Below the pieces are notes generated by a model. The model ran no database searches. It saw only the letters and a program-made list of their open reading frames with translations, and had not been told where the DNA came from. A DNA stretch of 64,000 nucleotides from Runella defluvii (GTDB lineage Bacteria > Bacteroidota > Bacteroidia > Cytophagales > Spirosomataceae), in the NCBI RefSeq assembly GCF_014195535.1, contig NZ_JACIBY010000001.1, positions 62,001 through 126,000 on the forward strand. Direction: 5' to 3'. Below are positions 16,601 through 42,334 of the stretch, one piece after another. Position 1 is the stretch's first letter. Every line of letters starts with the position of its first letter. The position numbers and the translations under genes were made by a program.

Positions 16601-16827
16601 CGGCACTGTTTTCCATCGTACCGCACCATTCCCATCATGGTACCCACCCACATAAAGCCCGACGTATCCTGAACTGTCGCCGTAATGTAGTGGATGGGAA
16701 GGCCCTGCTCGGGGCCAAGGTGCTGAAACGAGACGTTCGAGAATTGGGCATGACTCCTATGCTGCCCCCAGCAGATGAAAACCAAAAAGAGCAGGGACGA
16801 CAGGCGAAATGGCATAAATGCGACCAA
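13618..16827 (-). CDS. Beta-propeller sensor histidine kinase (Reg_prop/Y_Y_Y)
   Basis: A 1069-residue membrane sensor. A signal peptide (best start M5 at 16815, MPFRLSSLLFLVFICWG) precedes a periplasmic double propeller of Reg_prop repeats, seen as recurring GLxxF/Y and W(V/L)GT units (SGFMWVGTMMGMVRYDG, TLWVGTQNGFNRFD, NIWMGTDNGLGCLN, TLWMGTANGLTRFE). A Y_Y_Y domain (about 690-780) is followed by one membrane helix (about 800-820), a coiled coil with many Q and E residues, and a His_kinase domain with NQLNPHFLFNSLAVLD near residue 897. There is no fused response regulator. The ligand is unknown; such sensors often detect extracellular glycans in Bacteroidota. It is divergent from the lanthipeptide precursor array. 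Confidence 0.92.
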   Translation of the reverse strand: MVAFMPFRLSSLLFLVFICWGQHRSHAQFSNVSFQHLGPEQGLPIHYITATVQDTSGFMWVGTMMGMVRYDGKQCRIFDHERLNPHSLSDMLVRAVFMSKNGTLWVGTQNGFNRFDFRTQQFERFYFSQHGKRCNYIRCVAEDTQGKLWLGTASGLLVFDPISKKSELVKLPTDASSKTQVYSIRSIMADGETIWVGTDMGLYRYHRSSKSFQVFCKSDELGSIPDNSLSALAKHPQTGDILVGSRSGMVASLSLSSELFRIIKLPLKEPQEISRIYFDRDQTLWISTLGEGVFYFTKNSDKVGQFLSDINTPSSLGSNYVKSVFQDCAGVIWFSTSYKGLSRFNPYNQSFRSLLKDANVPQPNANASTINRIAVDSKDNLWLATSEGLLWIDAKKTTHKRYLHDPNNPYSLTDNYINSVLVDRNDGVWVGTRSYLHYFDVKTGRFTHFDHLPNEENPSPSEGITRTDFVAGKLIYDLAESADGRIFIGTEEGLTIYNPKTRIFTNHFNDARIRKVPINRFNSLFFDSKNYLWVGCGVDEVLCISPDLTKTVSYRYEESNPKGLPDNGVMAFAEDSKGNIWMGTDNGLGCLNRQTQQFTNFTTRNGLANNYISALIRVGSTLWMGTANGLTRFEENGKRFTSFGSADNLQVLSVETECVAKDSQGNLLFGGLYGLVSFHPNQVKTNSFIPPVAVTSVKVYGKEVLPTLYRQTNVPIELDYDQNDLTIEVAALSYDHSENNLFSFWLEGIEKTWGAPTHQTTLNYLNLQPNEYILHVRAANNDGVWNPVPYHLHIIIHPPFWQRWWFRLLVLATLIGSGVYLYRWRVKMIEHEHATEVKLLEEQQTLQNQLNQELTEKLDYQQKFEIAQKQQAETERKTILLEREKFLSKYQNLVNQLNPHFLFNSLAVLDSLIYKDHKLASKYLRQLTKVYRYLIENDDHETVTLEQELRFARDFVSLLHMRYSDGLQIDIHLSETLNQKRIVPVTFQNLIENAIKHNITALESPLKVLIYEDNEYLIFENNLQKRGTVATSNKRGLSDFKALYSYLTNRPLFIEETNTHFVVRVPLLD

Positions 16828-16956: not shown

Positions 16957-17075
16957 TGGGGAATTTAACCGCTTTACTTTTTTGATTTTTCCCAGCGTCG
17001 TTTTACCCACCACCTTTGCAATGTCAATCACGACAAACAAATCATTCAAACACAAAAAACAAAACAAACACAACA

Positions 17076-17219
17076 ATGAAAAAGCAACTTTCAAAACTTC
17101 ATTTAAAAACGGATAACATCGTTGTGCTCTCTAAAAACGATATTCTAGCTATTAAAGGAGGGGCACCTGCGGTCAAAACTCTTTCTTGCCAAGTAGGTCG
17201 CTGCTGGCCAAATGGTTAG
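17076..17219 (+). CDS. Lanthipeptide precursor 1 (GG leader)
   Basis: A 47-residue precursor. The leader (MKKQLSKLHLKTDNIVVLSK then NDILAIKGG) has the basic, leucine-rich start and double-glycine end seen in Bacteroidota class I lanthipeptide leaders. The predicted core after GG is 18 residues, APAVKTLSCQVGRCWPNG, with one Thr, one Ser and two Cys, so at most two (methyl)lanthionine rings. The start is set by the ATG at 17076, which follows the same A/C-rich CAAACACAACA leader as the next three genes. Its core differs completely from precursors 2-4 while the leader is shared, as expected for substrates of one LanB/LanC set. Confidence 0.85.
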   Translation: MKKQLSKLHLKTDNIVVLSKNDILAIKGGAPAVKTLSCQVGRCWPNG

Positions 17220-17297
17220 TCGTTCTATTGAAACAATCTCTCATTTTTCTTTCCATTCACTTAAACACAAAACACAAAACACAAAACAAACACAACA

Positions 17298-17465
17298 ATG
17301 AAAAAGCAACTTTCAAAATTGAACTTGAAGACTGACAAAGTAGTAAACTTGTCAAAAGACAACAGCCAAGGCGTCGTAGGTGGCCGTCCTCAATCGAACC
17401 CTAATTCAAAAGTGTATTGTCTGACTGACTTATGTACATTCACGGGGGCAACATTCTCTTGCTAA
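17298..17465 (+). CDS. Lanthipeptide precursor 2 (tandem array)
   Basis: A 55-residue precursor with leader MKKQLSKLNLKTDKVVNLSK then DNSQGVVGG, and a 26-residue core that starts RPQSNPNSKVYC and ends CTFTGATFSC. The core holds three Cys and seven Ser/Thr, so up to three thioether rings. The start ATG follows an A/C-rich leader with no Shine-Dalgarno sequence. It is the first unit of an exact 215-bp tandem duplication and differs from precursor 3 at only two core residues (LT versus VS after YC). C39 cleavage after GG is expected. Confidence 0.9.
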   Translation: MKKQLSKLNLKTDKVVNLSKDNSQGVVGGRPQSNPNSKVYCLTDLCTFTGATFSC

Positions 17466-17512
17466 TTTTTCTTTCCATTTATTTAAACACAAAACACAAA
17501 ACAAACACAACA

Positions 17513-17680
17513 ATGAAAAAGCAACTTTCAAAATTGAACTTGAAGACTGACAAAGTAGTAAACTTGTCAAAAGACAACAGCCAAGGCGTTGTAGGTGGCC
17601 GTCCTCAATCGAACCCTAATTCAAAAGTGTATTGTGTGAGTGACTTATGTACATTCACGGGGGCAACATTCTCTTGCTAA
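17513..17680 (+). CDS. Lanthipeptide precursor 3 (tandem array)
   Basis: A 55-residue precursor whose leader is identical to that of precursors 2 and 4. The core starts RPQSNPNSKVYCVSDLC and ends TFTGATFSC, with three Cys. The in-frame upstream ATG at 17432 lies inside precursor 2 and would translate the spacer, so the conserved MKKQLSKL start at 17513 is chosen. It lies 215 bp after precursor 2 and 215 bp before precursor 4, including the shared A/C-rich 5' leader, so each copy keeps its own ribosome landing site. Confidence 0.9.
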   Translation: MKKQLSKLNLKTDKVVNLSKDNSQGVVGGRPQSNPNSKVYCVSDLCTFTGATFSC

Positions 17681-17727
17681 TTTTTCTTTCCATTCATTTA
17701 AACACAAAACACAAAACAAACACAACA

Positions 17728-17895
17728 ATGAAAAAGCAACTTTCAAAATTGAACTTGAAGACTGACAAAGTAGTAAACTTGTCAAAAGACAACAGCCAAG
17801 GCGTTGTAGGTGGCCGTCCTCAATCGAACCCTACCTCGAAGCACTATTGTCATTCTGATTTGTGCACATTTACTTGCCCATCTTGGAGCTGCTAA
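17728..17895 (+). CDS. Lanthipeptide precursor 4 (diverged core)
   Basis: A 55-residue precursor with the same leader as precursors 2 and 3 but a changed core: RPQSNPTSKHYCHSDLC, then TFTCPSWSC. A fourth Cys replaces the Gly of TFTG, and a Trp and a Pro appear near the end, so the ring pattern should differ. The leader DNA is almost unchanged while the core carries many replacements, which points to selection for diversity or recombination in the core. The start is placed at 17728 for the same reasons as in copy 3. Confidence 0.9.
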   Translation: MKKQLSKLNLKTDKVVNLSKDNSQGVVGGRPQSNPTSKHYCHSDLCTFTCPSWSC

Positions 17896-17935
17896 TTTTT
17901 CTTTCCATTTACTTACAGCCAAAAAATCAATAACA

Positions 17936-18064
17936 ATGAAAAAGCATTTGTCAAAACTCAGCCTGAAAACCGACAAAGTCGTATCGCTTTCAAAGACCCA
18001 ACTTCAAGATGCTCAAGGAGGTGCCGTGCCTTTTACGCAGAAAAAAACTTGTTTTTGTTTGTAG
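17936..18064 (+). CDS. Lanthipeptide precursor 5 (short core)
   Basis: A 42-residue precursor. The leader MKKHLSKLSLKTDKVVSLSK then TQLQDAQGG is homologous to the others but diverged. The predicted core is 13 residues, AVPFTQKKTCFCL, with two Thr and two Cys. T9-C10 adjacency would require the rings to form from T5 to one Cys and a spacing-limited second ring, so one or two rings are possible. It lies 208 bp after precursor 4 and is the last gene before a strong terminator. Its 5' leader (AAAAAATCAATAACA) differs from the array spacer. Confidence 0.82.
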   Translation: MKKHLSKLSLKTDKVVSLSKTQLQDAQGGAVPFTQKKTCFCL

Positions 18065-18091
18065 TAGCTATCTTTTAGCGGTCTTATGTGG

Positions 18092-18124
18092 CAGCCACCC
18101 TTCTCTAGGGTGGCTGTTTTTTTA
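18092..18124 (+). terminator. Terminator after the precursor genes
   Basis: CAGCCACCC (18092-18100), a 7-nt loop and GGGTGGCTG (18108-18116) followed by a run of eight T residues: a textbook intrinsic terminator. It separates the five precursors from lanC, so the precursors can be made in excess over the enzymes. Confidence 0.9.
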
Positions 18125-18252
18125 TAACCAATATTCGCGTTCTTATGGTGGCTTGCCTACGCTTCAAAAGAGATTTCTGACGGTTTAGCAAGATTGATTT
18201 TAGACCCTGAAAAAGTTTAATGAATTTTAAGCCTTACTCATCTAAGTGAACC

Positions 18253-19467
18253 ATGACAAGTGTTTATACGCTTACTTCGGAGGATTTCTCCGCCGACTGT
18301 AGAACTATTTTGGATCGAATCTATCACCATATTGCGGGTCAGCCAACCGACGGGCACGCGTCGCTGTTGGGGGGGCAAATGGGCTATGCCTTGTTTGAGG
18401 CATATTATCACCGCCATTTTGGAATCAAGGACGATGGCCGAATTTGGGAACGGGTGTCATCAAGCCTCAACGCTATTCAAGAAGGCAAACTCATTCATTC
18501 GTTTGCGGGTGGAATCGCGGGGGTTGCGTGGGGCTTTTTACATTTGTTCAACGAAGGCTTATTGCAAGACGATGAAATAGACCCGCAGTCGATTGTCGAA
18601 GACCTCGACGAAGGCTTGTTTGAAAGCGCGATGTTGTTGTTGGCCGACGGCAATTTTGACTATTTGCACGGGGCGCTTGGGGTGTGTTTGTATTTTCTGG
18701 AACGAACTCCCAGTCCTAAAATAACGTCGTACATCGACCAAATTGTCGAACAGCTATCGCTGGTAGCCGTTCGTTTTCCGAGTGGTAGCATTACGTGGGA
18801 GTTTGATGATTTTGGGCGTCGAGGTTCGTCTTCACCTTCCTTGTACAATTTGGGTCTATCGCACGGAACCGCCAGTATTGTCGCTATTTTAACACTTCTT
18901 TACGAAAAAGGTCATGCGCCAGCCCGTTGTAAAGAACTGATTGCGGGGGCGCTTCGGTGGATGTGGAACGTCCGCAATAAAAGTGCGCAATCAGTGTTTC
19001 CAAGCGTGGTTCAAGCCAATGCGCCCGACCAAGAGAGCCGCCTTGCGTGGTGTTATGGAGATTTGGGCATTGCCAATACGTTTTTGTTGGCGGGGCAAAA
19101 ACTCCAAAACGAATTTTGGGTCGAGATTGCCGAACAAACGATCATCCGCGCGGCGGCGCGTCGAGGCCGTGATGTAGCGATGAAAGACGCTGCACTTTGC
19201 CACGGAACCTTGGGAGCGGCGTATCTCTTTGGAAAATTTGCTAAAGCGTTTCCACAACACCTGTTGGAACCAACGGAAACCTATTGGCTTTCAAAGACAT
19301 TTGACTATGTCCAACCGACTGAGAGCAGCGATGTTTTTTTGAGCTACAACGGCGAGAGATACGAATCAAACCTATCATTGCTTGACGGAGAGGCGAGCAT
19401 TGGCATGGCGCTTTTGACGTATTTGGGCGCAGCACGGGCGTGGGAGCGTTTTTTGTTGTTGTCTTGA
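18253..19467 (+). CDS. lanC: Lanthionine synthetase C (LanC cyclase)
   Basis: A 404-residue LanC. It adds precursor Cys thiols to dehydroalanine/dehydrobutyrine to form (methyl)lanthionine rings. The zinc site is intact: C267 in AWCYGDLG, C316 and H317 in ALCHGTLG. The catalytic-type histidine H204 lies in LGLSHGTAS. Other barrel repeats are visible (DYLHGALG at 137-143, SFAGGIAGVAWG at 83-94, LLDGEASIGMALL at the end), so all toroid repeats are present. Length matches NisC-like enzymes. It follows the precursor terminator by 128 bp, so it needs its own promoter or read-through. The next gene is on the opposite strand, so lanC stands as a single gene. Confidence 0.93.
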   Translation: MTSVYTLTSEDFSADCRTILDRIYHHIAGQPTDGHASLLGGQMGYALFEAYYHRHFGIKDDGRIWERVSSSLNAIQEGKLIHSFAGGIAGVAWGFLHLFNEGLLQDDEIDPQSIVEDLDEGLFESAMLLLADGNFDYLHGALGVCLYFLERTPSPKITSYIDQIVEQLSLVAVRFPSGSITWEFDDFGRRGSSSPSLYNLGLSHGTASIVAILTLLYEKGHAPARCKELIAGALRWMWNVRNKSAQSVFPSVVQANAPDQESRLAWCYGDLGIANTFLLAGQKLQNEFWVEIAEQTIIRAAARRGRDVAMKDAALCHGTLGAAYLFGKFAKAFPQHLLEPTETYWLSKTFDYVQPTESSDVFLSYNGERYESNLSLLDGEASIGMALLTYLGAARAWERFLLLS

Positions 19468-19482
19468 AAAATAGCCTTGGTT

Positions 19483-22400
19483 TTATGCCTGCGGAGCGGT
19501 TGGGATGAACATTTCAATGCGCGTACCTGCGGCTTGGTTTTCGACATCAAACAAATCGACGACTTGAATTTTTGCTTTTTTATCCTTGTATTTCAACGAT
19601 TCAAAAATGCCGCGTGTCATTTCTTGTCCTCGTGAAATATGTCCCTCTCGGCGTGGGGCAAACTGACGTCCTACGCCGTTGTCTTGAATCGTACAAAAAA
19701 TATAATTTCCCTCACAACGGGCCGAAATGACCAGTTTTTTATCTCCTTCTTTGGGCATAAGGCCGTGCCAAATGGCATTTTCCACATAAGGCTGCAATAA
19801 CATTGGAGGCAGGAGTGTGTCGAGCATATCTTCGTCTTCGTCGATGTTAAATTCATAGCTAAACTCATGACTAAATCGAAATGCTTCCATTTCGACGTAC
19901 ATTTTGAGGGTTTCGATAATTTCTTCAAAACGTAGGTATTGGTGGTTAGAATTTTCCATGATTCGACGCACCAAGCGCGAAAATTTAGAGAGGTACTTGG
20001 CTCCTTCAACGCCTCGGTTTTGGAGTAAATAATTTTGAACCGAATTAAGTGAATTGAACAAAAAATGGGGGTTCATTTGCGATTGAAGCGCTTTGAGTTT
20101 CCATTCGCTCATTTGAAGTTCTAGCTGGTTGCGAATTTGGAGCGTATTTAGCCGCCAACGAATCAGTCCTGCTACTATGATTCCGACCATCAAGGCGATA
20201 ATTAATTTAAACCACCATGTTTCGGTAAAATAGGGCTCAACCGTAATTGTAAACTTCAACGGGGTTGTTGTCCAAAATCCAAAACTGTTGCCACTTTTGA
20301 CCCTTAGGGTGTAGGTTTTGGGGGCTAAATTGGTAAACGAAACGGTATTTTGATTACCCATATTGACCCAGTCGTTACTAAAGCCTTCGAGTTGGTATTG
20401 ATAGACGTTTTCGGTACTGGGCTCAAAATTGAGGGTTGAAAACTGGAGGTTGAGGATTTTTTCGTGCGGCTGTAACCCAATTGCTTGGCTCGTATCCAAC
20501 GCCCTTGCCTGACCACTCACTTCTATAGCACTCACAACGATTTTTGGAAGTAGTTTTTTGGAGTTTACTTCGTTGATTTTCAGTATATTGATGTGGTTGA
20601 TGTGTCCTAGTAACAATTCGTTGGGGGGATGGTAATAAAAACCCACGGGTGAGTTACTGTAAAGCCCCTCAATCGTAGAAAGGTGGCGAACGCTACGCGT
20701 TGGAACGTTACCAATTTGAATGCCTTCGTTGGTGCTAAACCAAAAATTTCCCCGTGGATCTTCGAGTATATTGGAGCAGTAGGTGTCTAAAATGTCATCT
20801 TTTTTGTAATCAAAACTTGCCCCAATTTTACCCGATGTTTCAATTTTGTCCACTCCACCCCAGCCCGATAATAGAACGCTGTTATTAGCGCCATTCTGCA
20901 AAGAAAGGTTACACATTGAACTAATTTCTACTCCTTTGTTGAACGGGAGTTCGTGAACATTGACAAAGGTTTTTTGAGGTTCGTCCCAATAAAAAAGACC
21001 TTTGCCGCAGGTAGCAAACCATATTTTGCCATTGGCAGTTTGGGTGATTGATTTAATAAGATTGTCTTTGTAAATCTTTTGATAAGCTTCTTGGGTCCAA
21101 AGTGAGAGCGGCCGTAACGTTGGATAATCAAGAACATGCAAACCGTGATTTTGGGAGGAAATCCATAGACGTTTTTGGGCGTCAAGCAAAACGTCCGTAA
21201 AATTAGCGGAGACTAGGTTCATGATTTCTTTCCACGGGCGAAGTACTTTTTGTTGAAAGTCAATTTTGTAGATACCGTTGTCGGAAAGGGCAACGGCTTG
21301 ATTCCCAATCCAGCGTAAACGATGAATGTACTCGGATTTGGGGAGAGGAAATAGCTGGATGGCTTGGGTTTCAGGTGCCCATTTGAGCACACCCGTGTGC
21401 GATAGCCCTAAGAGGTAGTGGCCATTAGGTAGTGGCAAGATTGAGGTAATGGTCACGGGGGCATTGACGGCCTTATGAGCAATGTGAAAGGTGCGAATGC
21501 CAATGTTTTTGTATCGATATTTGTAAAGGCCCATTTTGGTGCCCATCCACAATAGCCCATTTTCCTTGTCATCGAAAAAAGTTTTGATGGGGATACCGCT
21601 TTTGTAAAACGCTGGAAATGAATAAACCCGCTGTTGTTCAGGGTAAAAAGCCCGTAACCCAGTTTCAGTACCGAGTAAGAGAAGATGTTGCCCGTTGAGG
21701 TCGGCTACATCGACACCGCACAGAATATCTGCATTTTCAAACCCGCTGGAAAAATGCGTCAGGTGGTCGTTGGGGGCGATGCGCGTCAAGGTCCCATGAT
21801 GGCTGCCTACCCAAACATTGCCATGAATGTCTTCAAATCCTTGGGTAAATCGAACGGCTTTGTGCTTTCCTTTTTCGACAATACCGTGGTCGAGCAAGCA
21901 CTCAAGCTTGTCGGTGTTGGGAAGGTAGCGATACACGCCAATTTCGGAGATAATCCATAACCTACGGCGGCTATCTTCAAAAAAGCTGGCGTATTGGTAA
22001 TCATTTTCATTGGTAGAAATACGGTAAAAATGAAGCTTTCCCGTGGCGGGGTCATAACGTTTTACGTGGGTATAATCGCATAACCATACGTGATTGCGGG
22101 TGTCCACGAAGGCTTTTTCGTGAAGGTCGTTTTTGGTGTCTTTGTCGGCGTAGTTGTTTTCGAGTAAAGTTTTAACTGTGAGCGAACGACGCTCAATTTT
22201 GCAAAACCCTTTGCTGTCGATGGAAGCGTAAATGGTACCTTTTGAATCTGCGGAGACTCCAGAAGCGTACCCGATTTGAGCGTCTTTGAAGGTCAGAAAA
22301 CGATACCCATCGTAGCGACAAATACTACGAGCGGTGCCAAGCCACAGAAAACCGTCAGGGTCTTTGGTAATCGACCATACATCGTTAGAAGGAAGCCCTT

Positions 22401-22500
22401 CTTTGGTGGTAATAGACTCAAAAGTGAGTTCGGGAATTTGTGCTTCTAACGAATAGCCCCCCACTACCAGCATACAAAACAAAAAAACGATGCGGTTCAT
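19483..22500 (-). CDS. Beta-propeller sensor histidine kinase inside lanthipeptide cluster
   Basis: A 1005-residue sensor kinase. A signal peptide (MNRIVFLFCMLVVGGYSLEA) precedes a large periplasmic Reg_prop propeller (SNDVWSITKDPDGFLWLGTA, NVWVGSHHGTLTRI, GLLWMGTKMGLYKY, NFWFSTNEGIQIG), then a Y_Y_Y domain ending near LRVKSGNSFGFW, one membrane helix (about 752-775) and a His_kinase domain with LQSQMNPHFLFNSLNSVQ near residue 810. The ATPase part has LQPYVENAIWHGL. The response regulator lies 2 bp upstream of its start and is co-transcribed. Its location between lanC and lanB makes it a candidate regulator of the cluster, but this is inferred from position only. Confidence 0.92.
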   Translation of the reverse strand: MNRIVFLFCMLVVGGYSLEAQIPELTFESITTKEGLPSNDVWSITKDPDGFLWLGTARSICRYDGYRFLTFKDAQIGYASGVSADSKGTIYASIDSKGFCKIERRSLTVKTLLENNYADKDTKNDLHEKAFVDTRNHVWLCDYTHVKRYDPATGKLHFYRISTNENDYQYASFFEDSRRRLWIISEIGVYRYLPNTDKLECLLDHGIVEKGKHKAVRFTQGFEDIHGNVWVGSHHGTLTRIAPNDHLTHFSSGFENADILCGVDVADLNGQHLLLLGTETGLRAFYPEQQRVYSFPAFYKSGIPIKTFFDDKENGLLWMGTKMGLYKYRYKNIGIRTFHIAHKAVNAPVTITSILPLPNGHYLLGLSHTGVLKWAPETQAIQLFPLPKSEYIHRLRWIGNQAVALSDNGIYKIDFQQKVLRPWKEIMNLVSANFTDVLLDAQKRLWISSQNHGLHVLDYPTLRPLSLWTQEAYQKIYKDNLIKSITQTANGKIWFATCGKGLFYWDEPQKTFVNVHELPFNKGVEISSMCNLSLQNGANNSVLLSGWGGVDKIETSGKIGASFDYKKDDILDTYCSNILEDPRGNFWFSTNEGIQIGNVPTRSVRHLSTIEGLYSNSPVGFYYHPPNELLLGHINHINILKINEVNSKKLLPKIVVSAIEVSGQARALDTSQAIGLQPHEKILNLQFSTLNFEPSTENVYQYQLEGFSNDWVNMGNQNTVSFTNLAPKTYTLRVKSGNSFGFWTTTPLKFTITVEPYFTETWWFKLIIALMVGIIVAGLIRWRLNTLQIRNQLELQMSEWKLKALQSQMNPHFLFNSLNSVQNYLLQNRGVEGAKYLSKFSRLVRRIMENSNHQYLRFEEIIETLKMYVEMEAFRFSHEFSYEFNIDEDEDMLDTLLPPMLLQPYVENAIWHGLMPKEGDKKLVISARCEGNYIFCTIQDNGVGRQFAPRREGHISRGQEMTRGIFESLKYKDKKAKIQVVDLFDVENQAAGTRIEMFIPTAPQA

Positions 22501-22502
22501 AA

Positions 22503-23306
22503 CTACACTATTTTGCCTGAGTTGACATAAAAATCAGAAAGAAGCGCTAAGAAATCGTCCTTTCTTCGTCGCGATACCTCGATTTCGGCCCCGTCGCTCA
22601 TCCATACTTGTCCACCGTCGCCTTTGACGTAGCGCTTGATATGCTCCAAATTGATGATATTAGACTGGTGGACGCGAAAGAAATAATAATTGTCCAGAAT
22701 CTCTTCGTACTCCTTTAGTAGCCTCGACACGACAATCACTTTGTGGTGGGTCAAATGGAATTTTGTATATGACCCCAGCGACTCACACTGAATGATATCG
22801 TTCATTTGTACAATATGAATGCCTTCGGCTGTGGGGAGGGCAATCCGCTGATGATTGTTTCTGAGGCGTTGTTTGAGTGAAGATGTTTTGGGATTTTGAA
22901 TGTTTTCCTGCAAAATCGTCACCTGTTGTGGCGTGATGGAGGTCGCTTGAGATTTGTATTTTTCTACCGCCGCTTGGAGTTCGTCGGGATCAATAGGTTT
23001 GAGAAGATAATCGATGGCGCTGACCCGAAATGCTCGCACGGCGTACTCTTGATAGGCAGTGGTAAAAATCACTCCAAAATCAATTTTTTCAAAACACGCC
23101 AATAAGTCAAATCCTGATTTGCCAGGCATTTGAATGTCCAAAAAAACCAAGTTGGGACGTTGAAGGTGAATCAAGTCAAGGGCCGAATCAACGTTTTTGG
23201 CTTGTCCACTTATTTCTACCTCAGGGCACACGATTTGGAGAAGATTGGTGAGGGCTTGGCGGGCGTTGGCTTCGTCATCGACGATGATGGCACGGAGTTT
23301 TTCCAT
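22503..23306 (-). CDS. LytTR response regulator, partner of embedded kinase
   Basis: A 267-residue regulator. The chosen start at 23306 gives MEKLRAIIVDDEANARQ, the usual opening of the family; an ATG eight codons upstream would add MFCSILFL and is less likely. Receiver features are DD at 10-11, D57 in FLDIQMPG, FTTAYQEYAV and YLLKPIDPDEL. The C-terminal LytTR domain (about 165-267) contains YYFFRVHQSNIINLEHIKRY. The kinase starts 2 bp after its stop, so the pair is an operon. Promoter and targets are not identified; the neighbouring lan genes are the obvious candidates. Confidence 0.92.
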   Translation of the reverse strand: MEKLRAIIVDDEANARQALTNLLQIVCPEVEISGQAKNVDSALDLIHLQRPNLVFLDIQMPGKSGFDLLACFEKIDFGVIFTTAYQEYAVRAFRVSAIDYLLKPIDPDELQAAVEKYKSQATSITPQQVTILQENIQNPKTSSLKQRLRNNHQRIALPTAEGIHIVQMNDIIQCESLGSYTKFHLTHHKVIVVSRLLKEYEEILDNYYFFRVHQSNIINLEHIKRYVKGDGGQVWMSDGAEIEVSRRRKDDFLALLSDFYVNSGKIV

Positions 23307-23572
23307 AAGAAACAAGATTGAGCAAAACAAGGTAGTTCTTTTTTGAGAAATGCCCTATTAGTTGACGATAAGTGGTACTTTTTACTTCAAATTAGGCGGC
23401 TTTGGGTTTATATCTGGGGAAAAGGTAACTGCTGAATATAGACCTTCCCAATTATCAATTCATCACTGCCAATTTTAGAAATAAACAGGCCGTTTATAAA
23501 GTAAGGCTCTATATAAATAAAGGAATCGGCAACTTTGGGGTAGCTGGTATTATAAAAATGAAGTGATATGCT
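23307..23572. other. Intergenic gap, no clear gene
   Basis: The stretch from the regulator start to the small ORF at 23573 is AT-rich and has stop codons in all frames at short intervals. It should contain the promoter of the kinase pair on the minus strand and possibly one rightward promoter near CAACTTTG (about 23530). Nothing else is recognisable. Confidence 0.4.
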
Positions 23573-23686
23573 ATGAAAACAACGAAGTGGAAGAAACAAG
23601 TTTTGGGGCAAATACACCAACGTTTTGAATGGATGATGCTGATTATAGTGGCACTGATTGTGTTTTTGAGTTTGGTGTGGCGGTGA
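23573..23686 (+). CDS. Putative 37-residue single-pass membrane peptide
   Basis: A short frame starting MKTTKWKKQVLGQIHQRFEW and continuing with a strongly hydrophobic segment (MMLIIVALIVFLSLVW) to a stop at 23684-23686. A basic amphipathic N-terminus and one membrane helix is a design seen in small immunity, toxin or regulatory membrane peptides. It has an ATG and lies in a gap with nothing else on this strand. Position between the kinase pair and lanB allows an immunity role, but there is no sequence family to support it. It may be chance. Confidence 0.4.
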   Translation: MKTTKWKKQVLGQIHQRFEWMMLIIVALIVFLSLVWR

Positions 23687-23891
23687 ACTTGGAAGCTAGC
23701 CACATCTTTCCGAAAAGTAAAGTACCGTAGGCCAACGCAAAACGGCCGAATGTAAGCTCAAACTAACCGCGTACAAACTGTCAATTTTTCAAAACCTGAG
23801 AAAATGCAACTTTACATCGTCAATCACGACGACACAGGGATGCCGAAAACTGAACGTAGAGTAAGCACAATCAATCAACACGTTAAAACTC

Positions 23892-24008
23892 ATGAAAAAG
23901 ACAACCGAAAAAAACGCACCTAAAGCAGCCAAAACAGTATTGTCGAAAGACGCCGCCCAACACATTCAGGGAGGAGCTTATAAACTTCGTGGCAATACGG
24001 GATCTTAA
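23892..24008 (+). CDS. GG-leader peptide without cysteine
   Basis: A 38-residue peptide: MKKTTEKNAPKAAKTVLSK, then DAAQHIQGG and a predicted 10-residue C-terminal part AYKLRGNTGS. It keeps the MKK start, the VLSK block and the double glycine of the lanthipeptide leaders, but its tail has no Cys, so no lanthionine ring can form. It may be an exported signal peptide, a linear peptide with only dehydrated Thr/Ser, or a decayed precursor. It is followed after 12 bp by a strong hairpin and T-run, which supports it being a real transcription unit. It lies about 180 bp before lanB. Confidence 0.6.
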   Translation: MKKTTEKNAPKAAKTVLSKDAAQHIQGGAYKLRGNTGS

Positions 24009-24020
24009 TCAAAGGAAATA

Positions 24021-24070
24021 AAAACGCTGTAAGAAGCGCTCAACAGGTAAGCAGTCTTACAGCGTTTTTA
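24021..24070 (+). terminator. Terminator between GG peptide and lanB
   Basis: A perfect 14-bp inverted repeat (24021-24034 with 24055-24068) with a 20-nt loop and T-run. It closes the small-peptide unit and would attenuate transcription into lanB, which starts 120 bp downstream. Confidence 0.8.
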
Positions 24071-24185
24071 GCAACGCTTCCGTAGTAAAATGCCACTGCT
24101 TAAAAGCAAAAAACCACGCTTCGTTCCCCTTTTTTTGAGTCAGGCAGACCGTACCGCTATTTTTACTAAAAAATCAGCCACAGTC

Positions 24186-27100
24186 ATGTCAACTACCTAT
24201 TTTTCAACGGCCTTTGTACGAGTGCCTCTCGCGGGGAGCGAAGCAATTGAAAACATTGATTGGGAAAAACTCAGCCACCAGCTCACCCAACCTGCTTTTT
24301 TAGAAGCGTTGTACATTGCTTCACCTGCCCTGTACGAAGAAGTACAAAAATTGGATGTAACGCAGCATCCCGACGAAAAATCGAAGCGAATTGTTTATTC
24401 TCTCCTCAAATACCTCGCGAGGTATGCCACCCGCTGTACACCTTTTGGGTTGTTTGGAGGGTTTGCTACGTTGCCCATTACCACTGCATCCACAGCTGTG
24501 CGTATAGATAACATCGGTACTCCTCGTAAAGTGACGCGCCTCGACATGAACTACCTCTGCGCGCTCACCCAAGACCTTGAAAAACACCCTGATATTAAGC
24601 CTTTCCTTCGTTTTTACCCCAATACCAGCTTGTACAGCATCAACGGCCAATACCGCTACGTGGAGTATCGGTACAATGGCGGCGGAATGCGTGTTCATCA
24701 CCTGAGTAGCGCCGAGCAGTCGGAGTACTTGGAGGCGGTGCTGGCCCGTGCTCAAAAGGGAGCATCGCTGTATGCTTTGGCTGAAATGCTTGTTTCGGAA
24801 GAGATTACGCTCCAAGAAGCCCTCGACTACGTCGAAGAGGTGGTGGCTTCGCAGCTACTGGTGAGCGAGCTAGAACCTGCGCTTACGGGCGGTGACTTTT
24901 TGGCACAAATCATCGGGACGCTCCAAAAGATTGCGGAGATTGAAACGTCGGAACACCTAGCGGAAATTTTGAGCCTTTTGGGCGAAGTTCAGCAGGCATT
25001 GTTGGCCATTGAGCAATCGGGGAGCGATTATGGTAGCGCTAAATTTGAAAAAGTGGAAGCCTTATTAAGCCAACTTCCGACGCCGTTTGACCGTAAAGTG
25101 TTGTTCCAAATTGATACTTATTTACCCGAACTTTCAGGCCAATTGAACCGTGGCTTGTTGAATAAATTAGCTTCCAAAATCCCTACTTTATTAAAACTAT
25201 CGCCCGCAGGAAATCCGATGCTCGACGAATTTCGGAATCGGTTTTATGAAAAATACGAAGACGAAGAAGTTCCCTTTGTGTTGGCCCTCGACCCCGAAGT
25301 GGGCATTGGGTATCCTGGAGGACAAGCCAAAAACGATATTTCGCCCTTGGTGGAAGGTGTATGGGTGGGTAGTAACCAGTCATCCAATCAGACCCTCAGT
25401 ATTCCGCCTGAGCACAGCTATTTGCTGCAAAAAGTAGCCGAAGCTCAACTGACAGGTGCGTACGAAATTTGCCTCAAAGAAGAAGACCTGCGTGCCGTAG
25501 AAGTACGTCAGCCGCAGTTGCCGCTCACCAACACGGCCATGTTTTCGGTGATTCGTGAGGAGGGGCGGGAGAAAATCGTACTCGATACCTTTGGCGGTAC
25601 GACGGGAACGTTTTTGCTCGGGCGCTTTGGCCATACCGACGCCTCGGTGTTGGCGTTGCTCAAAGAAATTAGTGCCGCCGAAGACCGCAGCGTCCCAGAG
25701 GTGATTTTTGCGGACATTGTCCACCTGCCCGAAGCGCGGACGGGCAACGTCATCATTCGTCCTCAATTGAAAAAGTACCAAATTCCGTTTTTGAGCAAAG
25801 CCTCTACGGCGCCCGAATTTGAAATCGCGCTTTCGGATTTAATGTTGAGCGTACGGGGCGGGACGATTTTTTTACGGTCAAAATCACTGAACAAAATCAT
25901 CGTTCCGCGTTTGTCCAATGCCCACAATTTTTCGAGTACTCAGTCATTGGATACGTACCACTTTTTGTGTGCGTTACAATCGCAGCACGTGCGCTCGGGA
26001 CTCAGTAATTTTACGGGCAGTTTTGCGCCATTGTTTATGTTTATTCCGCGTTTGGTACTCGACAACATCGTGTTGGCCGAAGCCCAGTGGAATTTCAAAG
26101 AGCAGCACGTGAAGTCGATGGTAGCGGCGTTTAAAAACAATAATTGGCCTGCGCTAAAAGCTGAAATTGAGGCGTGGAGAGCGCAATATTCGGTACCGAG
26201 GTACATCTGTTTGACACAGTTCGACAATGAACTGTACGCCGATTTAGAAAACCAATGGTTGGCCGAGACTTTCTTAAACGAAATAAAATCACTAGAGCAG
26301 TTCAATATCAAAGAGTTTTTGCACCGTGCCGATTCGTCGGTGGTGCAGTCGGGGCGGGGCTGGCACACCAATCAGTTTGTCGTTGCCTTTGATAATACCG
26401 CTTCGTATCCCGCAGTCTCAGTAGCCTCTCCTGCGCTGCCTGTACAAAACTCTACTCCAACGACGCGCAAATTTTTTACGGGTTCGGAGTGGCTCTATTA
26501 TAAAGTTTATACAGGTATCAAAACCGCCGACCGCCTTCTGACCGACGTGTTATATCCGTTGACGGAGCGTTTCAAGGCCAACGGTTGGACCGATAAGTTT
26601 TTCTTCATTCGCTACGCCGACCCGAACGTGCATTTTCGTTTGCGTTTTCATTTGGCAAACCCTGCGCACATCGGGCAAGTGGTGCAAGAATTGCACGATG
26701 CTTTGGCGCCGTACATGGCCAACAAAACCGTCACTTCGGTCGTAAACGACACCTACAACCGTGAATTGGAACGGTATGGAAGCAATTCTATCGATGCCAT
26801 TGAAGACTACTTTCACCTCGATAGCGATACCATTTTGCGGTTTTTGTCGATGATTGACGGCTCCGAAGGCGAAGAATGCCGCTGGCGTTTTGGCATGAAA
26901 CTTACTGATGACCTGCTAACGGCGTTTGGGTTTGATTTAAAACAAAAAATGGAGTTTACCGAAAAACGTGCTGCCGATTTTGGTCGTGAATTTGGGTATA
27001 ATGCAGGGTTGAAAAAACAGCTGGATGCCCGTTACAAAGACGTTGAACCTGCGCTCCAAGAACTGTTTGCGTTGGCGAATCCCGAACACGCGTTTTTCTA

Positions 27101-27362
27101 CGAATTGTCAAACCAACGCACCGAAAATTTACAGTTGATGATTGAGTACGTTCGGATGTTGCACGCGCAGAGGGAGTTACAAATTTCGTTGGAAGACTTG
27201 CTGGCGAGTTTGGTTCACATGAACATCAATCGCCTGTTTCGGAGCCAACAGCGCTTGGTAGAATACATGGTTTTTTACCACCTCCATAAATATTACCGCA
27301 TCAACTACGGACGCAACGTATTAGCCAAAAAAACAGCCGATTCCAACGTAACAGCCCAATGA
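24186..27362 (+). CDS. lanB: Lantibiotic dehydratase, full-length LanB
   Basis: A 1058-residue class I dehydratase. It uses glutamyl-tRNA to glutamylate precursor Ser/Thr and then eliminates glutamate. The N-terminal glutamylation region spans about 1-740, starting MSTTYFSTAFVRVPLAG and including RYATRCTPFGLFGGFATL, a classic LanB block. The C-terminal elimination (SpaB_C, thiopeptide-type) domain starts near residue 757 (KFFTGSEWLYYKVYTG) and includes FFFIRYADPNVHFRLRFH and NDTYNRELERYG. Both halves are in one chain, unlike split LanBs known from some Bacteroidota clusters. An in-frame ATG at 24090 would add 32 unrelated residues right after the terminator, so 24186 is preferred. Its stop overlaps the exporter start (ATGA). 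Confidence 0.93.
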   Translation: MSTTYFSTAFVRVPLAGSEAIENIDWEKLSHQLTQPAFLEALYIASPALYEEVQKLDVTQHPDEKSKRIVYSLLKYLARYATRCTPFGLFGGFATLPITTASTAVRIDNIGTPRKVTRLDMNYLCALTQDLEKHPDIKPFLRFYPNTSLYSINGQYRYVEYRYNGGGMRVHHLSSAEQSEYLEAVLARAQKGASLYALAEMLVSEEITLQEALDYVEEVVASQLLVSELEPALTGGDFLAQIIGTLQKIAEIETSEHLAEILSLLGEVQQALLAIEQSGSDYGSAKFEKVEALLSQLPTPFDRKVLFQIDTYLPELSGQLNRGLLNKLASKIPTLLKLSPAGNPMLDEFRNRFYEKYEDEEVPFVLALDPEVGIGYPGGQAKNDISPLVEGVWVGSNQSSNQTLSIPPEHSYLLQKVAEAQLTGAYEICLKEEDLRAVEVRQPQLPLTNTAMFSVIREEGREKIVLDTFGGTTGTFLLGRFGHTDASVLALLKEISAAEDRSVPEVIFADIVHLPEARTGNVIIRPQLKKYQIPFLSKASTAPEFEIALSDLMLSVRGGTIFLRSKSLNKIIVPRLSNAHNFSSTQSLDTYHFLCALQSQHVRSGLSNFTGSFAPLFMFIPRLVLDNIVLAEAQWNFKEQHVKSMVAAFKNNNWPALKAEIEAWRAQYSVPRYICLTQFDNELYADLENQWLAETFLNEIKSLEQFNIKEFLHRADSSVVQSGRGWHTNQFVVAFDNTASYPAVSVASPALPVQNSTPTTRKFFTGSEWLYYKVYTGIKTADRLLTDVLYPLTERFKANGWTDKFFFIRYADPNVHFRLRFHLANPAHIGQVVQELHDALAPYMANKTVTSVVNDTYNRELERYGSNSIDAIEDYFHLDSDTILRFLSMIDGSEGEECRWRFGMKLTDDLLTAFGFDLKQKMEFTEKRAADFGREFGYNAGLKKQLDARYKDVEPALQELFALANPEHAFFYELSNQRTENLQLMIEYVRMLHAQRELQISLEDLLASLVHMNINRLFRSQQRLVEYMVFYHLHKYYRINYGRNVLAKKTADSNVTAQ

Positions 27363-29593
27363 AAGACTTCACAAAAACAATTTTTGGCGGTAAAATGAGC
27401 CCCTATGGATTAGTTGACCGATTTCCCCATATTCAACAAGGGGCGTCGATGGACTGTGGCCCTACTTCGTTGGCCATTATTTTTCGGCACTACGGCGTCG
27501 ATAATGTCAAGCATTTGTTTACGCAGTTGGCCGAAATCAACCAAGAAGGGACAAGTTTGTACGCCCTGCTCGAAATTGCCGAAAATTACGGTTTTAAGGC
27601 CGAAGGCTATGAGCTGGATTATGACTATTTGCAGCAAATTCAGTTGCCCTGCATTGCCCATTACGAAGGGCAGCATTTTGTGGTCATTTACGAAGCCAAC
27701 GACAATTTCGTGCGCGTTTCTGACCCTGCTTTTGGAAAAGTTCGGTATTCCAAAGAAGAGTTTACCAATAAGTGGAGCGGCATTGTACTCGAACTAAAAC
27801 CCACCGAAGCTTTTTACCAAAATGCCGAACTTGCGGAGGCTGGGAAGAAAAATAAAGAAGAAAAACGCTCCATTTTTCAACAAATTTATTGGCCCATCAT
27901 CAAAGAGAATAAGCGGGTATTGGGGGAAATCTTGTTGTTTTCGCTGTTGCTTGAGTTGGTGGGACTCGTCATGCCGCTTTTCACCCAAACCATGCTCGAC
28001 GATGTGCTGGTCAACCAAAACAAAAAATTGATGCTGGGTTTGTTGGTGGGGCTGGGGTTGGTGTTTATCGTGCAAGTTGTTCTCACTTACACGCGCAGTA
28101 TGCTCATGGTGCATTATCGGTTTCGGTTTGAGGTCGATTTTATGACCCAATTTTTCGACCGTCTTATTTCGCTCAAACAAAAATACTACGATAGCCGCAA
28201 GCGGGAAGAGTTTATGTCGCGTTTTCAGGAGGGAATCGGGATTCGTCAACTTACGAATCCGATGATTATTCAAAACTTCCTCGACATTTTCTTCATGCTT
28301 ATTTACTTCCCCGTGTTGTTTGCTTTTAGCGGGTCGTTGGGCTTGATTTCGCTGACTTGTTTTGTGGCTTACTGCGTTACCACGGTCTTTTTTATTCCTA
28401 TTGTTAAAAACCTTCGCTCGAAAGTCTATCATAAAAATCAGGCGTCGTTGGGCGGTTTTTTGGATACGTTGTTGGGGATTAAAACCGTCAAACTGTTGTC
28501 GCTCGAAAAATATAAATTGGTAAAATGGAAACACCTTCACCGCGAGTCCATCAACTCGGTGATGCAAGACGAGCAAAAGCAGATTCTTATCAACTCCCTT
28601 CAGCGACTTATTTTTATTTTTAGCCAAATCGCGGTGTTTTGGGTGGGCGCTTATCAGGTGTTTACGGGCCAACTGAGCATTGGGCAATACATGGCGTTTT
28701 CGTCTATTTTTATGACGCTGATGAACTCCGTCAATAGCGTAAGTACACTTTGGATGATGATGACGCAGTTGACGGTGAGTTTTGAAAAAGTCAACGAAAT
28801 TTTCTTAGAAGAGCGCGAAACGAGCAATTACCAAGAACAAATCAATGCCTGTTCGAGCAAAGTTGTGAAGTTTGAAAATGTATCGTTTCGGTATAGTCAA
28901 CGCGAAGAAAAATACCAATTGCGTAACATTAACTGTGAAATCAAAAAAGGAGAGCGCATTGGTATTGTAGGGCGAAATGGCGCGGGGAAATCAACTTTTG
29001 TGAAGCTTCTTGTGGGTCTTTACCCCGAATACGAAGGAAAAATACGTTTTGACGGTGTTGAGCTTCGTGAAATCAACCCCAAAGTGCTGCGTAGCCACAT
29101 ACACATGTTTCCGCAGGATACGTATATTTTTAACGATACCATCAAAGAAAACATCCGCTGTGCCAACCTCGCTGCTTCCACGGAAGATGTCGTTGAGGCG
29201 GCCAAGCTGGCCGATTTGCACAATTTTGTCAAAGGCAATCACCTCGGGTACAACCAAATGGTGGGCAATTTTGGCGGAAACCTTTCGGGCGGACAAGTCC
29301 TCAAAATTGGTTTTGCCCGCTTGTTTATTTGCCCCGATCCCGACATTATTATTTTGGACGAGGCGAGTAGTGCCTTAGACGTAGAAACCGAACGGACGAT
29401 TTTGGAAAATATCTATAAACGTTTTGAGGGTAAAACCATCATTTCGATTGCGCACCGCCTGCATACACTCAAAAAAGCTGACCGCATTTTGGTATTTGAC
29501 GATGGAATGATTTCCGAACAAGGCAAGCACGAAGACCTCCTATCGCAGCGCGGCATTTACTATGATTTTATGAAAACGTACATTGATTACTAA
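27359..29593 (+). CDS. lanT: C39-peptidase ABC exporter (LanT type)
   Basis: A 744-residue bacteriocin-type peptidase/permease/ATPase. The N-terminal C39 domain (1-145) has the oxyanion glutamine in HIQQGASMDCGPTSL (Q26/Q27), the catalytic C33, H106 in EGQHFVVIYE and D122 in VSDPAFG, so it should be active and cut after the GG leaders. Membrane helices fill about 175-450. The ATPase has Walker A GRNGAGKST (538-546), signature LSGGQ and Walker B IIILDEASSALD. It overlaps lanB by 4 bp, so translation is coupled. It would act in the inner membrane with the HlyD-type protein and an outer-membrane channel encoded elsewhere. Confidence 0.95.
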   Translation: MKDFTKTIFGGKMSPYGLVDRFPHIQQGASMDCGPTSLAIIFRHYGVDNVKHLFTQLAEINQEGTSLYALLEIAENYGFKAEGYELDYDYLQQIQLPCIAHYEGQHFVVIYEANDNFVRVSDPAFGKVRYSKEEFTNKWSGIVLELKPTEAFYQNAELAEAGKKNKEEKRSIFQQIYWPIIKENKRVLGEILLFSLLLELVGLVMPLFTQTMLDDVLVNQNKKLMLGLLVGLGLVFIVQVVLTYTRSMLMVHYRFRFEVDFMTQFFDRLISLKQKYYDSRKREEFMSRFQEGIGIRQLTNPMIIQNFLDIFFMLIYFPVLFAFSGSLGLISLTCFVAYCVTTVFFIPIVKNLRSKVYHKNQASLGGFLDTLLGIKTVKLLSLEKYKLVKWKHLHRESINSVMQDEQKQILINSLQRLIFIFSQIAVFWVGAYQVFTGQLSIGQYMAFSSIFMTLMNSVNSVSTLWMMMTQLTVSFEKVNEIFLEERETSNYQEQINACSSKVVKFENVSFRYSQREEKYQLRNINCEIKKGERIGIVGRNGAGKSTFVKLLVGLYPEYEGKIRFDGVELREINPKVLRSHIHMFPQDTYIFNDTIKENIRCANLAASTEDVVEAAKLADLHNFVKGNHLGYNQMVGNFGGNLSGGQVLKIGFARLFICPDPDIIILDEASSALDVETERTILENIYKRFEGKTIISIAHRLHTLKKADRILVFDDGMISEQGKHEDLLSQRGIYYDFMKTYIDY

Positions 29594-29594
29594 C

Positions 29595-29887
29595 ACGCGT
29601 CAGACGATAGTCAGACGCAAAAAGAAAAGTTGTCAGACCGAATAGAGCAAACAACAACCGTCTGACTACCGTCTGACGGCCAGCACGCGTCAGACGATAG
29701 TCAGACGCAAAAACAAAAAGTTGTCAGACCGAACAGAGAGCAAACAACGACCGTCTGACGGCCAGTACGCGTCAGACGATAGTCAGACGCAAAAAGAAAA
29801 AGTTGTCAGACCGAACAGAGAGCAAACAGCGACCGTCTGACTATCGTCTGACGGCTAGTACGCGTCAGACGATAGTCAGACGCAAAG
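29595..29887. repeat. Palindromic tandem repeat between lanT and hlyD
   Basis: Three full units (starting 29595, 29685 and 29767; lengths 90, 82 and 93) and a partial fourth at 29860. Each begins ACGCGTCAGACGATAGTCAG and ends with the inverse, CGTCTGACTATCGTCTGACG or a shorter form. The 20-nt element at 29770-29789 is the exact reverse complement of 29834-29853, which also pairs with 29863-29882. GTCAGAC/GTCTGAC recurs throughout, so the whole 293 bp can fold into stacked hairpins. There is no open reading frame and no unique spacers. Confidence 0.92.
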
Positions 29888-29919
29888 CAACCAAAATGTA
29901 TTATAAACCTCAATGAGCC

Positions 29920-31194
29920 ATGAATAATCCAGCATTCCAAGACCTTCAAGCCACGCAATACGAAGATTTGTACCACGTTGACGACGCGCCTGTGGCCGAT
30001 TTGCGCATCAAAGCGCTCAGCCGAATGGGGTGGTGGGCGGTTATTTTTGCCCTGACGGGCATGTTGGCAGGCGCACTGATTATTTTGCCCGATACCATCC
30101 AAACCCCGTTTGTGCTAAAATCAGAAGTGACCGAAGACATTTATCGTTTTCCATCGGCGGTTTATGTAGAGCGGGTACACGTTCATAACGGTCAGCAAGT
30201 AAAGGCAGGCGATACGATTCTTGAAATCAGCGCTCCCGACATTGCCGCATTGACGGCAGACCTGACTTCTGCCCAAGCCAATTTGAAAAGTTTTGAGCAG
30301 TTTAAAGCGGTGGCAACGCAAAATGAACGGCAGATTATCGAAGTCAACATTCAACGGATTCGAGAAGAAATTGCGTTAAAAAAATCACAGCTTGCCATTG
30401 CCGAACAAAAATGGGCGTCGGAATCGCAAAAACTAGCCCACGAAGCGCAAGAAGCGAAACGCCTTTTTGTAGTAAATCAGGAATTATACAAAAACGGAGA
30501 TGTGAGTAAAAACGAACTTAATCAGCACGAAACGAATGCCTTGCGTTCCAAAAATGCGCAAGAAATTGCTTACCAAAGTTATTTGGAAAGCCGTAACCTA
30601 CTCCAGCGCGACATCGCTTCTAAAGAGTTGGAAATAACTGGTTTAGAAAAACAAATTGCCAAAAATAGCAACGACCATCTGCTCGAAGGTGATCGCCTCA
30701 AAGGAAGTTATTCGTCGGTGCAGCAGCGTTTGAAGGGAACTTACGGAGTTTTTGAAACGACAGCCGACAATCATTTGCTCTTAAAAGCCAAGCACAACGG
30801 TACGGTCTCGTTTGTGTTTGAAGGGGATAAAGAAGTAGCTCCAAGTACTATTTTGCTCAAAATGATTTATGAAGACGCTCCTTTGTACGCTTATACGCAG
30901 GTCAATTCGTCGCAAATTGGCAAAGTAAAAGTGGGACAAGAAGTGGTAATGAAGCTGGATGCCTATCCCGTGTACGAATGGGGCGGAGCAACGGGTATGG
31001 TATCAGAGGTATCGCTGACGCCTAACGAAAAGGGAATGTTCAACGTGCGGGTACAAGTCGAAGACTTACAAAAACTGCGCGGCCGCCTCAACATTGGTAT
31101 GCTAGGTAAAGCCAATATCGTTACGGATGAACGTACGATTTTTGGGTACTTGTTCCGCAAGTTTCAAAAAACAACGTCCGCGTTAGTTGAGTAG
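29920..31194 (+). CDS. HlyD-family periplasmic adaptor of the exporter
   Basis: A 424-residue membrane fusion protein. After a cytoplasmic start comes one membrane helix (about 45-65, WAVIFALTGMLAGALIIL), a first biotinyl-lipoyl half (RVHVHNGQQVKAGDTILEIS), a long coiled-coil hairpin (about 110-265), the second lipoyl half (LLLKAKHNGTVSFVFEGDKE) and a beta-barrel end. It should bridge the C39 ABC exporter to a TolC-type outer-membrane channel, which is not in this window. It lies 326 bp after lanT, separated by the palindromic repeat, so its expression level may be set separately. Confidence 0.92.
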   Translation: MNNPAFQDLQATQYEDLYHVDDAPVADLRIKALSRMGWWAVIFALTGMLAGALIILPDTIQTPFVLKSEVTEDIYRFPSAVYVERVHVHNGQQVKAGDTILEISAPDIAALTADLTSAQANLKSFEQFKAVATQNERQIIEVNIQRIREEIALKKSQLAIAEQKWASESQKLAHEAQEAKRLFVVNQELYKNGDVSKNELNQHETNALRSKNAQEIAYQSYLESRNLLQRDIASKELEITGLEKQIAKNSNDHLLEGDRLKGSYSSVQQRLKGTYGVFETTADNHLLLKAKHNGTVSFVFEGDKEVAPSTILLKMIYEDAPLYAYTQVNSSQIGKVKVGQEVVMKLDAYPVYEWGGATGMVSEVSLTPNEKGMFNVRVQVEDLQKLRGRLNIGMLGKANIVTDERTIFGYLFRKFQKTTSALVE

Positions 31195-36072: not shown

Positions 36073-36534
36073 ATGGTTCATCTTGACGATACCGATTTGC
36101 AGATTTTGAGGCTGCTGCAAACCAATGCACAGCTGACAATCAAAGAGATTGCGACGCAGATTAATCTCTCCATTACGCCCGTTCATGACCGCATCAAAAA
36201 ACTGGAACGGGAAGGCATCATCGAAAAATACGTGACGATGCTAAACCGCAAAAAACTAAACAAAGGCTTGGTGGTTTATTGTAATGTAACCCTCGATAAG
36301 CAGCAACATGAAAACTTTCGTGAGTTCAACGAAGCCATGCTTCAAATGCCTGAGGTGGTAGAGTGCTGCGTGGTGTCGGGGACGTTTGATTACCTCATCA
36401 AAATCGTGGCCACCGACGTGGAGAGTTACCACGCCTTTTACCAAGAAAAATTAGCCAGTTTTAAAGCCATTTCGCACATCAGCAGTTTTTTTGTGATGTC
36501 GGAAGTGAAAAGCACGACGGCAATACCGATTTAA
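36073..36534 (+). CDS. Lrp/AsnC-family transcriptional regulator
   Basis: A 153-residue regulator with an N-terminal winged helix-turn-helix (LDDTDLQILRLLQTNAQLTI, then KEIATQINLSITPVHDRIKK) and a C-terminal RAM/effector domain (about 68-145, with VVSGTFDYLIKIVATDVESY). The ATG at 36073 gives the usual family start; an in-frame TTG at 36037 would add 12 unlikely residues. It is divergent from ald and probably regulates it and itself in response to alanine or another amino acid (inference from family and arrangement). Confidence 0.93.
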   Translation: MVHLDDTDLQILRLLQTNAQLTIKEIATQINLSITPVHDRIKKLEREGIIEKYVTMLNRKKLNKGLVVYCNVTLDKQQHENFREFNEAMLQMPEVVECCVVSGTFDYLIKIVATDVESYHAFYQEKLASFKAISHISSFFVMSEVKSTTAIPI

Positions 36535-36729
36535 CCATCAAAACCTATCAAGTTGTCTTTTGCAAATAAAAGTTACTCTTCTCATTTTTTGAAATTTTAC
36601 CGTTTGATAAATATTCTTGAAAAAGGAAAGCATATTTTTTGAGTCTATAATTCAAATTTCTATCATTGAGAATAAAAACTAAGGTGTGTTTTTGGTTGAC
36701 ATACTGGCTATGTTATTATCTCAAAAAAA

Positions 36730-42222: not shown

Positions 42223-42291
42223 GTTACTAAATAGTTTTTATTTTTGTTGCAGAATAGACGACAAATTCAAAAGCTGCTAGTAACCTTAAAG

Positions 42292-42325: not shown

Positions 42326-42334
42326 GTTTCATTT

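Follow-up and report, generated by a model that had tools for sequence, protein, structure and literature searches.

The locus described here is, with high confidence, the ortholog of the Rui class I lanthipeptide cluster of Runella limosa; its best reading is a Rui system with an operon split by an insert, the link between this insert and the peptides being unproven. Genes, domains, active-site alignments, orthology and the insert itself are established directly for the window (the whole 64 kb stretch of DNA that was analyzed). Since the enzymes of a near-certain near-twin in R. limosa already modify their peptide, we regard the cluster as, for the most part, an unremarkable further instance of a known system; it opens no new class.

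Parts of the cluster

An earlier note on this DNA had described a class I lanthipeptide cluster in a Bacteroidota genome, and the leader model, domains and alignments support this assignment at the level of sequence. Window ORFs and profile searches placed every part that it had named where it had put them, in the gene order LanA array, LanC, insert, LanB, C39-ABC, HlyD. The parts do lie together in the cluster, as was claimed, but LanC and LanB are split by 4.6 kb with a histidine kinase and a response regulator on the opposite strand.

17076..17219, + strand: LanA1 precursor, 47 aa, core APAVKTLSCQVGRCWPNG, 2 Ser/Thr and 2 Cys (NF038158, 34.6 bits)
17298..17465, + strand: LanA2 precursor, 55 aa, core RPQSNPNSKVYCLTDLCTFTGATFSC, 7 Ser/Thr and 3 Cys (NF038158, 51.1 bits)
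17513..17680, + strand: LanA3 precursor, 55 aa, core RPQSNPNSKVYCVSDLCTFTGATFSC, 7 Ser/Thr and 3 Cys (NF038158, 51.1 bits)
17728..17895, + strand: LanA4 precursor, 55 aa, core RPQSNPTSKHYCHSDLCTFTCPSWSC, 8 Ser/Thr and 4 Cys (NF038158, 51.0 bits)
17936..18064, + strand: LanA5 precursor, 42 aa, core AVPFTQKKTCFCL, 2 Ser/Thr and 2 Cys (NF038158, 36.1 bits)
18090..18118, + strand: Rho-independent terminator-like hairpin after the precursor array (-22.1 kcal/mol, z -5.5), then a T run
18253..19467, + strand: LanC cyclase (PF05147, E 2.7e-34)
19471..24074, no strand: insert between lanC and lanB (blastn break 19470/24075)
24186..27362 (alternative start 24090), + strand: LanB dehydratase, one piece, 1058 aa (PF04738, PF14028)
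27359..29593, + strand: C39 peptidase-ABC exporter, PCAT type (PF03412 and ABC domains)
29920..31194, + strand: HlyD-family periplasmic adaptor (PF13437)

All five GG-leader precursors (17076-18064) score over the 27-bit cut-off of the NCBIfam leader model NF038158 ('class I lanthipeptide'), and in the 8.0 Mb window genome the matches of this model at E 1 were these five only; Pfam had no family for them. Common to the five is the leader MKKxLSKLxLKTDxxVxLSK...GG, joined in 5/5 ORFs to a core with Ser/Thr and Cys. The earlier count of five GG-leader peptides is right for the LanAs but misses a sixth, Cys-free one at 23892-24008. The five cores, previously called different or near-different, are there, with those of LanA2 and LanA3 just two residues apart. 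LanA2-LanA4 form a 215-bp tandem repeat (98% for the LanA3 repeat unit), and with its middle three copies so arranged the number of precursors probably rises and falls through duplication. As a terminator-like hairpin closes the array, it is probably transcribed apart from the enzyme genes and at another level.

Six short ORFs of the 64 kb window matched the GG-leader pattern, all inside the cluster; the pattern was set after the peptides had been seen, and at two other lanthipeptide loci (L072, L073) it missed the precursors. It occurred neither in eight 16.7-19.9 kb regions around orthologs of the inserted kinase nor in any of 1000 Markov-simulated copies of 23331-24089. With the pattern thus confined to the cluster, the GG-leader ORFs do not appear to be chance matches.

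LanC is a separate protein, and its zinc site is intact, as reported before: aligned to NisC, it keeps the zinc Cys and Cys-His (CYG, CHG) and the catalytic His and Asp, which we take to be the residues with these roles in NisC. LanB was correctly called one-piece, with the glutamylation and elimination domains of a class I enzyme in the same ORF (PF04738, E 2.9e-134; PF14028, E 1.2e-66). Its start is more likely at 24186 than at 24090, because the upstream ATG in the related Runella genome G010 is out of frame. In a phmmer alignment to NisB the RxxxRxTPFGLF stretch, the LD aspartate, the RLR arginine and the ExxRYG pair are kept; we take these to be glutamylation and elimination residues, the compared part ending before the last histidine that we would count among them.

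A different product, e.g. a thiopeptide-like one, is suggested by the NCBIfam label of the LanB C-terminal part (TIGR03891, thiopeptide-type) and by the similar thiopeptide-type name of 9g04, the best solved match of LanB. We consider a non-lanthipeptide product extremely unlikely, as the presumed glutamylation residues align to NisB and the TIGR03891 part is itself the elimination domain (Pfam Lant_dehydr_C). Furthermore, the cluster has an intact LanC and Cys-bearing cores, and RuiABC is reported to yield rings (PMC9993889).

The fused LanB had been thought unusual. Among 395 Bacteroidota genomes, 20 of the 40 near-complete PF04738 matches (the window's own included) lie in ORFs >1000 aa and the other 20 in those of 732-778 aa, with seven further ORFs of 894-1002 aa that matched the profile partly left outside the 40; we therefore rejected the idea that a fused LanB is exceptional in the phylum.

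The exporter and the adaptor, too, are as they had been described. The exporter joins a C39 peptidase (PF03412) to ABC domains; the best match of its C39 domain, the likely cutter of the leaders, is the double-Gly protease domain 6mpz, in the alignment to which Cys, His and Asp are kept. The HlyD protein scored over the cut-off of PF13437 and under that of TIGR01843. Palindromic GTCAGACGATAGTCAGACG repeats stand between the two genes (29599-29910, four exact copies of the pattern), with one at this gap in G010 and none in R. limosa. Genome-wide, at <=2 mismatches, there are 23 in the window genome, 11 in R. limosa (G003), 16 in G010 and none in four other Runella; a reversed control pattern gave none.

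Export, leader cleavage and all activity of the window copy would follow its protein families and RuiABC. LanB would put glutamate from Glu-tRNA on core Ser/Thr and then eliminate it, leaving dehydro residues to which LanC would add Cys to form (methyl)lanthionine rings; the exporter C39 domain would cut after GG; and the ABC part, HlyD and an outer-membrane channel encoded elsewhere would secrete the product. Lanthionine rings are in print just for RuiABC of R. limosa, by analogy with which the window product may carry them. The enzyme operon of the window species is split by the 4.6 kb insert with its two-component system and Cys-free GG-leader peptide. Neither self-immunity genes nor an outer-membrane channel were recognized among the listed cluster genes.

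Several further candidates were dropped. A scan for TTG/TAnnTTTG, which we take to be the Bacteroidota promoter motif, found no full match upstream of lanA or lanB, so that such a promoter was rejected there; a sigma-70 scan found 23 sites with 19.1 (sd 4.1) expected. Plasmid origin was rejected on a megablast of 17000-19470 against plasmids (no match), and phage origin on a search of LanB against phages (two matches, 22-25% identity).

Relation to the Rui system of Runella limosa

The cluster is present in two other Runella genomes, R. limosa (locus L015; also G003) and G010. A contig of Runella limosa DSM 17973 encodes a protein that shares 95% identity with LanB; against L015 we found 95% identity for LanB, 96% for LanC, 97% for C39-ABC and 93% for HlyD, and against G010 95-99% for the four. 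There are five precursors in R. limosa and four in G010, where the counterpart of LanA1 was not found. The LanA1 core is identical in L015 and the LanA5 core in all three genomes; LanA3 and LanA4 cores are identical in G010 and respectively one and two residues off in R. limosa, and the LanA2 core differs at one residue from the R. limosa core consistent with the published mRuiA.

The window shares with L015 its genus, the gene order LanA array, LanC, LanB, C39-ABC, HlyD and the flanks; the orthologous gene set stands at the same R. limosa locus. The flanks, also shared with G010, are a propeller kinase (13618-16815) on one side and a PRA-PH (MazG-like) gene at 31276 on the other. Unlike L015, the window has the 4.6 kb insert (kinase, regulator, GG peptide) between lanC and lanB and the palindromic repeat array before hlyD. 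The flanking kinase occurs in 10 of 12 other Runella genomes; in the eight of these ten that are without the cluster, the PRA-PH gene is 0.4-1.2 kb from it (in 6/8 the gap holds a further ORF of ~230 aa). With kinase and PRA-PH gene nearly adjoining in 8/8, the cluster sits at a site that is without it in most of the genus. Three Runella with the cluster-free site (G002, G005, G008) have LanB elsewhere.

Beyond the cluster, a 5.8 kb stretch (36530-42334) that both Runella relatives lack is taken up by a single 1830-aa protein, whose domains are reprolysin-like peptidase, PKD, Ycf48-like propeller and GCX_COOH. An M14 carboxypeptidase with GH115_C and Por_Secre_tail domains (31871-34606) was matched at E 1e-60 in two of the 13 Runella genomes, one of them that of the window, and is absent between matching flanks in G010.

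On a wider scale the NF038158 leader family has a patchy distribution, with 3 of the 39 in the set of relatives and 5 of the 395 sampled across the phylum (4 over cut-off), the window genome being counted in both. LanA, LanC, LanB and C39-ABC occur together in G246 and G095 at 26-28% identity, in G095 with an extra gene before the exporter. G095 also holds, at L074:9711-11086, an L1b-type LanA neighbourhood with three Cys-bearing GG peptides whose leaders are of a different type (MLKxILxLxGxxxLSxNEQKxIxGG).

Class I lanthipeptides of Pedobacter lusitanus are said to have been described by Bothwell in 2021. For RuiABC of R. limosa, co-expressed with GluRS/tRNA-Glu in E. coli, the reported main product was 7-fold dehydrated with three thioether rings and still bore glutathione adducts, which means that the native Rui peptide was not obtained (PMC9993889, Lee et al. 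2023). A refactored R. limosa class I cluster, LanI-101, gave 4-6 dehydrations and 3 rings (PMC9576775) and is probably the RuiABC cluster.

RuiABC is most likely the L015 cluster, an identification that rests on species and on Ser/Thr/Cys counts, not on the published accession WP_157607478. Precursors 2 and 3 of L015 have 7 Ser/Thr and 3 Cys (2/2, 8/4 and 2/2 for precursors 1, 4 and 5); only these two match 7 dehydrations and three rings, and the two other R. limosa LanB-like loci, L119 (G003:C1) and L120 (G003:C34), had no filtered GG-leader ORF of 7 Ser/Thr and 3 Cys. RuiABC was for this reason taken as the ortholog of the window cluster, where LanA2 and LanA3 have the same 7 dehydratable residues and 3 Cys. 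Against the identity stand the very existence of two further LanB-like loci and the two precursors named for the R. limosa cluster in PMC9576775 vs five found in L015. One of the two loci is broken and lies beside a LanC; the other is distant, and there the LanB C-terminal part is matched by an ORF of its own, accompanied by a C39-ABC exporter and a candidate GG precursor with 7 Cys.

Claims of novelty fared less well than the description of the parts. The products had been judged likely new; two window cores are identical to those of R. limosa and two others to those of G010, and the enzymes of the putatively orthologous RuiABC have been expressed, with their peptide dehydrated and cyclized (PMC9993889; PMC9576775). 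Pinensins had been named as the only characterized Bacteroidota examples, while class I peptides of RuiABC, of Chryseobacterium (PMC9993889) and of Pedobacter lusitanus (LahT150 cleavage of PedA15.2, cited in PMC12328550) have also been studied. The Pedobacter lusitanus system resembles the window, in a likeness by description only, in its Bacteroidota class I peptides and in the GG-type leader cleavage used in the laboratory. Pinensins are likewise Bacteroidota class I lanthipeptides, but their LanB is split, as described in PMC7268733, vs one 1058-aa protein here. Leaders ending in GG and cut by C39 were not novel either: Bacteroidetes class I LanAs with such leaders, often with a C39 protease in the cluster, were reported in 2020 (PMC7268733). 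The window resembles these in its L-rich leader ending in GG, the C39 peptidase in the cluster and LanB plus LanC; by eye its leader reads LxLKT...L (NF038158, L1b), which does not quite follow the LxLxKx5L motif given there.

The insert between lanC and lanB

The insert is delimited by a blastn break against L015 and G010 (L025/L026) and is absent from both of these relatives with the cluster. It contains:

19483..22500, - strand: histidine kinase with Reg_prop, Y_Y_Y and His_kinase (LytS-type) domains (Pfam)
22503..23306, - strand: LytTR response regulator (PF00072, PF04397)
23573..23686, + strand: 37-aa single-TM microprotein
23892..24008, + strand: sixth GG-leader peptide, 38 aa, no Cys, core AYKLRGNTGS (GG-leader pattern)
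24019..24070, + strand: perfect inverted repeat of 16 bp, terminator-like, downstream of the sixth peptide (-22.6 kcal/mol, z -5.3)

In R. limosa and G010, as in four clusters that are more distant, lanC and lanB are at most about 130 bp apart or touch; as LanC and LanB abut in the four distant clusters too, the state with the insert is most likely derived. The kinase/regulator pair, missing from this gap in the two Runella relatives as well as the four distant clusters, was rejected as an old part of the cluster.

C39 peptidases follow a spacing rule that places L at -12 and I at -4 relative to the cut. The sixth peptide has both residues and is without the KLxLKT box of the LanAs, so it would be expected to be exported without modification. 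A search of 149 other family genomes at E 0.1, weak as a test with so short a query, gave no match to it, nor did NCBIfam.

The best-scoring match of the inserted kinase in 12 other Runella is 30% identical. Among 150 family genomes it has relatives in at least 10 other places at E 1e-120, with up to five candidates scored per genome: eight at 50-54% identity, whose neighbourhoods we read, and two at 32-33%, which were left out. A LytTR regulator, 74.5-78% identical, adjoins the kinase in 7/8 loci, in the order kinase then regulator, whereas the window has regulator then kinase. A stretch similar to the microprotein lies upstream of the kinase in 6/8 loci (L088, L089, L090, L091, L093, L094), the matches being weak (E 7e-5 to 0.006, composition correction off). 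The microprotein (type RGFDWIALxxITLIILxSLVF) travelled with the insert into the window and is possibly a small partner of the propeller kinase. No LanB, LanC or C39 match was found in any of the eight loci, so that kinase orthologs were rejected as markers of peptide clusters; the strict GG-leader pattern was found in 0/8, and a looser filter gave 9 short GG-containing ORFs in three loci, none of which fits the stricter pattern.

Possible roles of the insert

The insert may represent regulatory capture, may be neutral or may harm lanB expression; the data do not decide among these. One could speculate that it is a peptide-sensing switch like ComC/ComD/ComE: the Cys-free GG peptide would leave via the cluster C39 transporter and be sensed by the propeller kinase, with the LytTR regulator controlling the lanthipeptide genes. 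One insert inside the operon indeed carries kinase, regulator and GG peptide, the peptide has C39-type leader spacing yet neither a LanA KLxLKT box nor Cys, and a strong hairpin follows it. The linkage of kinase and GG peptide across relatives expected of a ComC/D/E-type pair was, however, seen in 0/8 kinase-ortholog loci, where LanB, LanC and C39 are missing as well, and this leaves the signal-receptor pair less supported; the kinase sensor is a propeller, not of ComD type, and the peptide is found in no other of the 150 family genomes. We consider such a switch unlikely. A stronger version, in which the lanthipeptide operon captured its own peptide-signal switch, with the Cys-free peptide using the lanthipeptide exporter, escaping LanB and reporting export activity to the propeller kinase and LytTR regulator, which tune the separately terminated precursor array, seems very unlikely; if true, it would be a Bacteroidota peptide-pheromone circuit with a Reg_prop kinase.

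Alternatively, by splitting the operon the insert would have left a cluster that is decaying and silent in the window species. The close lanC-lanB spacing of the two relatives and of the four distant clusters is lost in the window, and a terminator-like hairpin stands directly before lanB; insert and hairpin could lower or abolish lanB expression there. A decaying cluster seems doubtful to us, as the LanC, LanB, C39-ABC and HlyD frames are intact and 93-99% identical to those of the two relatives.

As a Rui ortholog with a split operon, the window holds a Rui-type cluster that diverges slightly and offers natural variants of the core, one 4-Cys core and two short 2-Cys cores among them; the one enzyme set common to these varied cores makes it useful for substrate-tolerance work. 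The insert amounts to a natural experiment, with the same biosynthetic genes found with and without a two-component system and a GG peptide.
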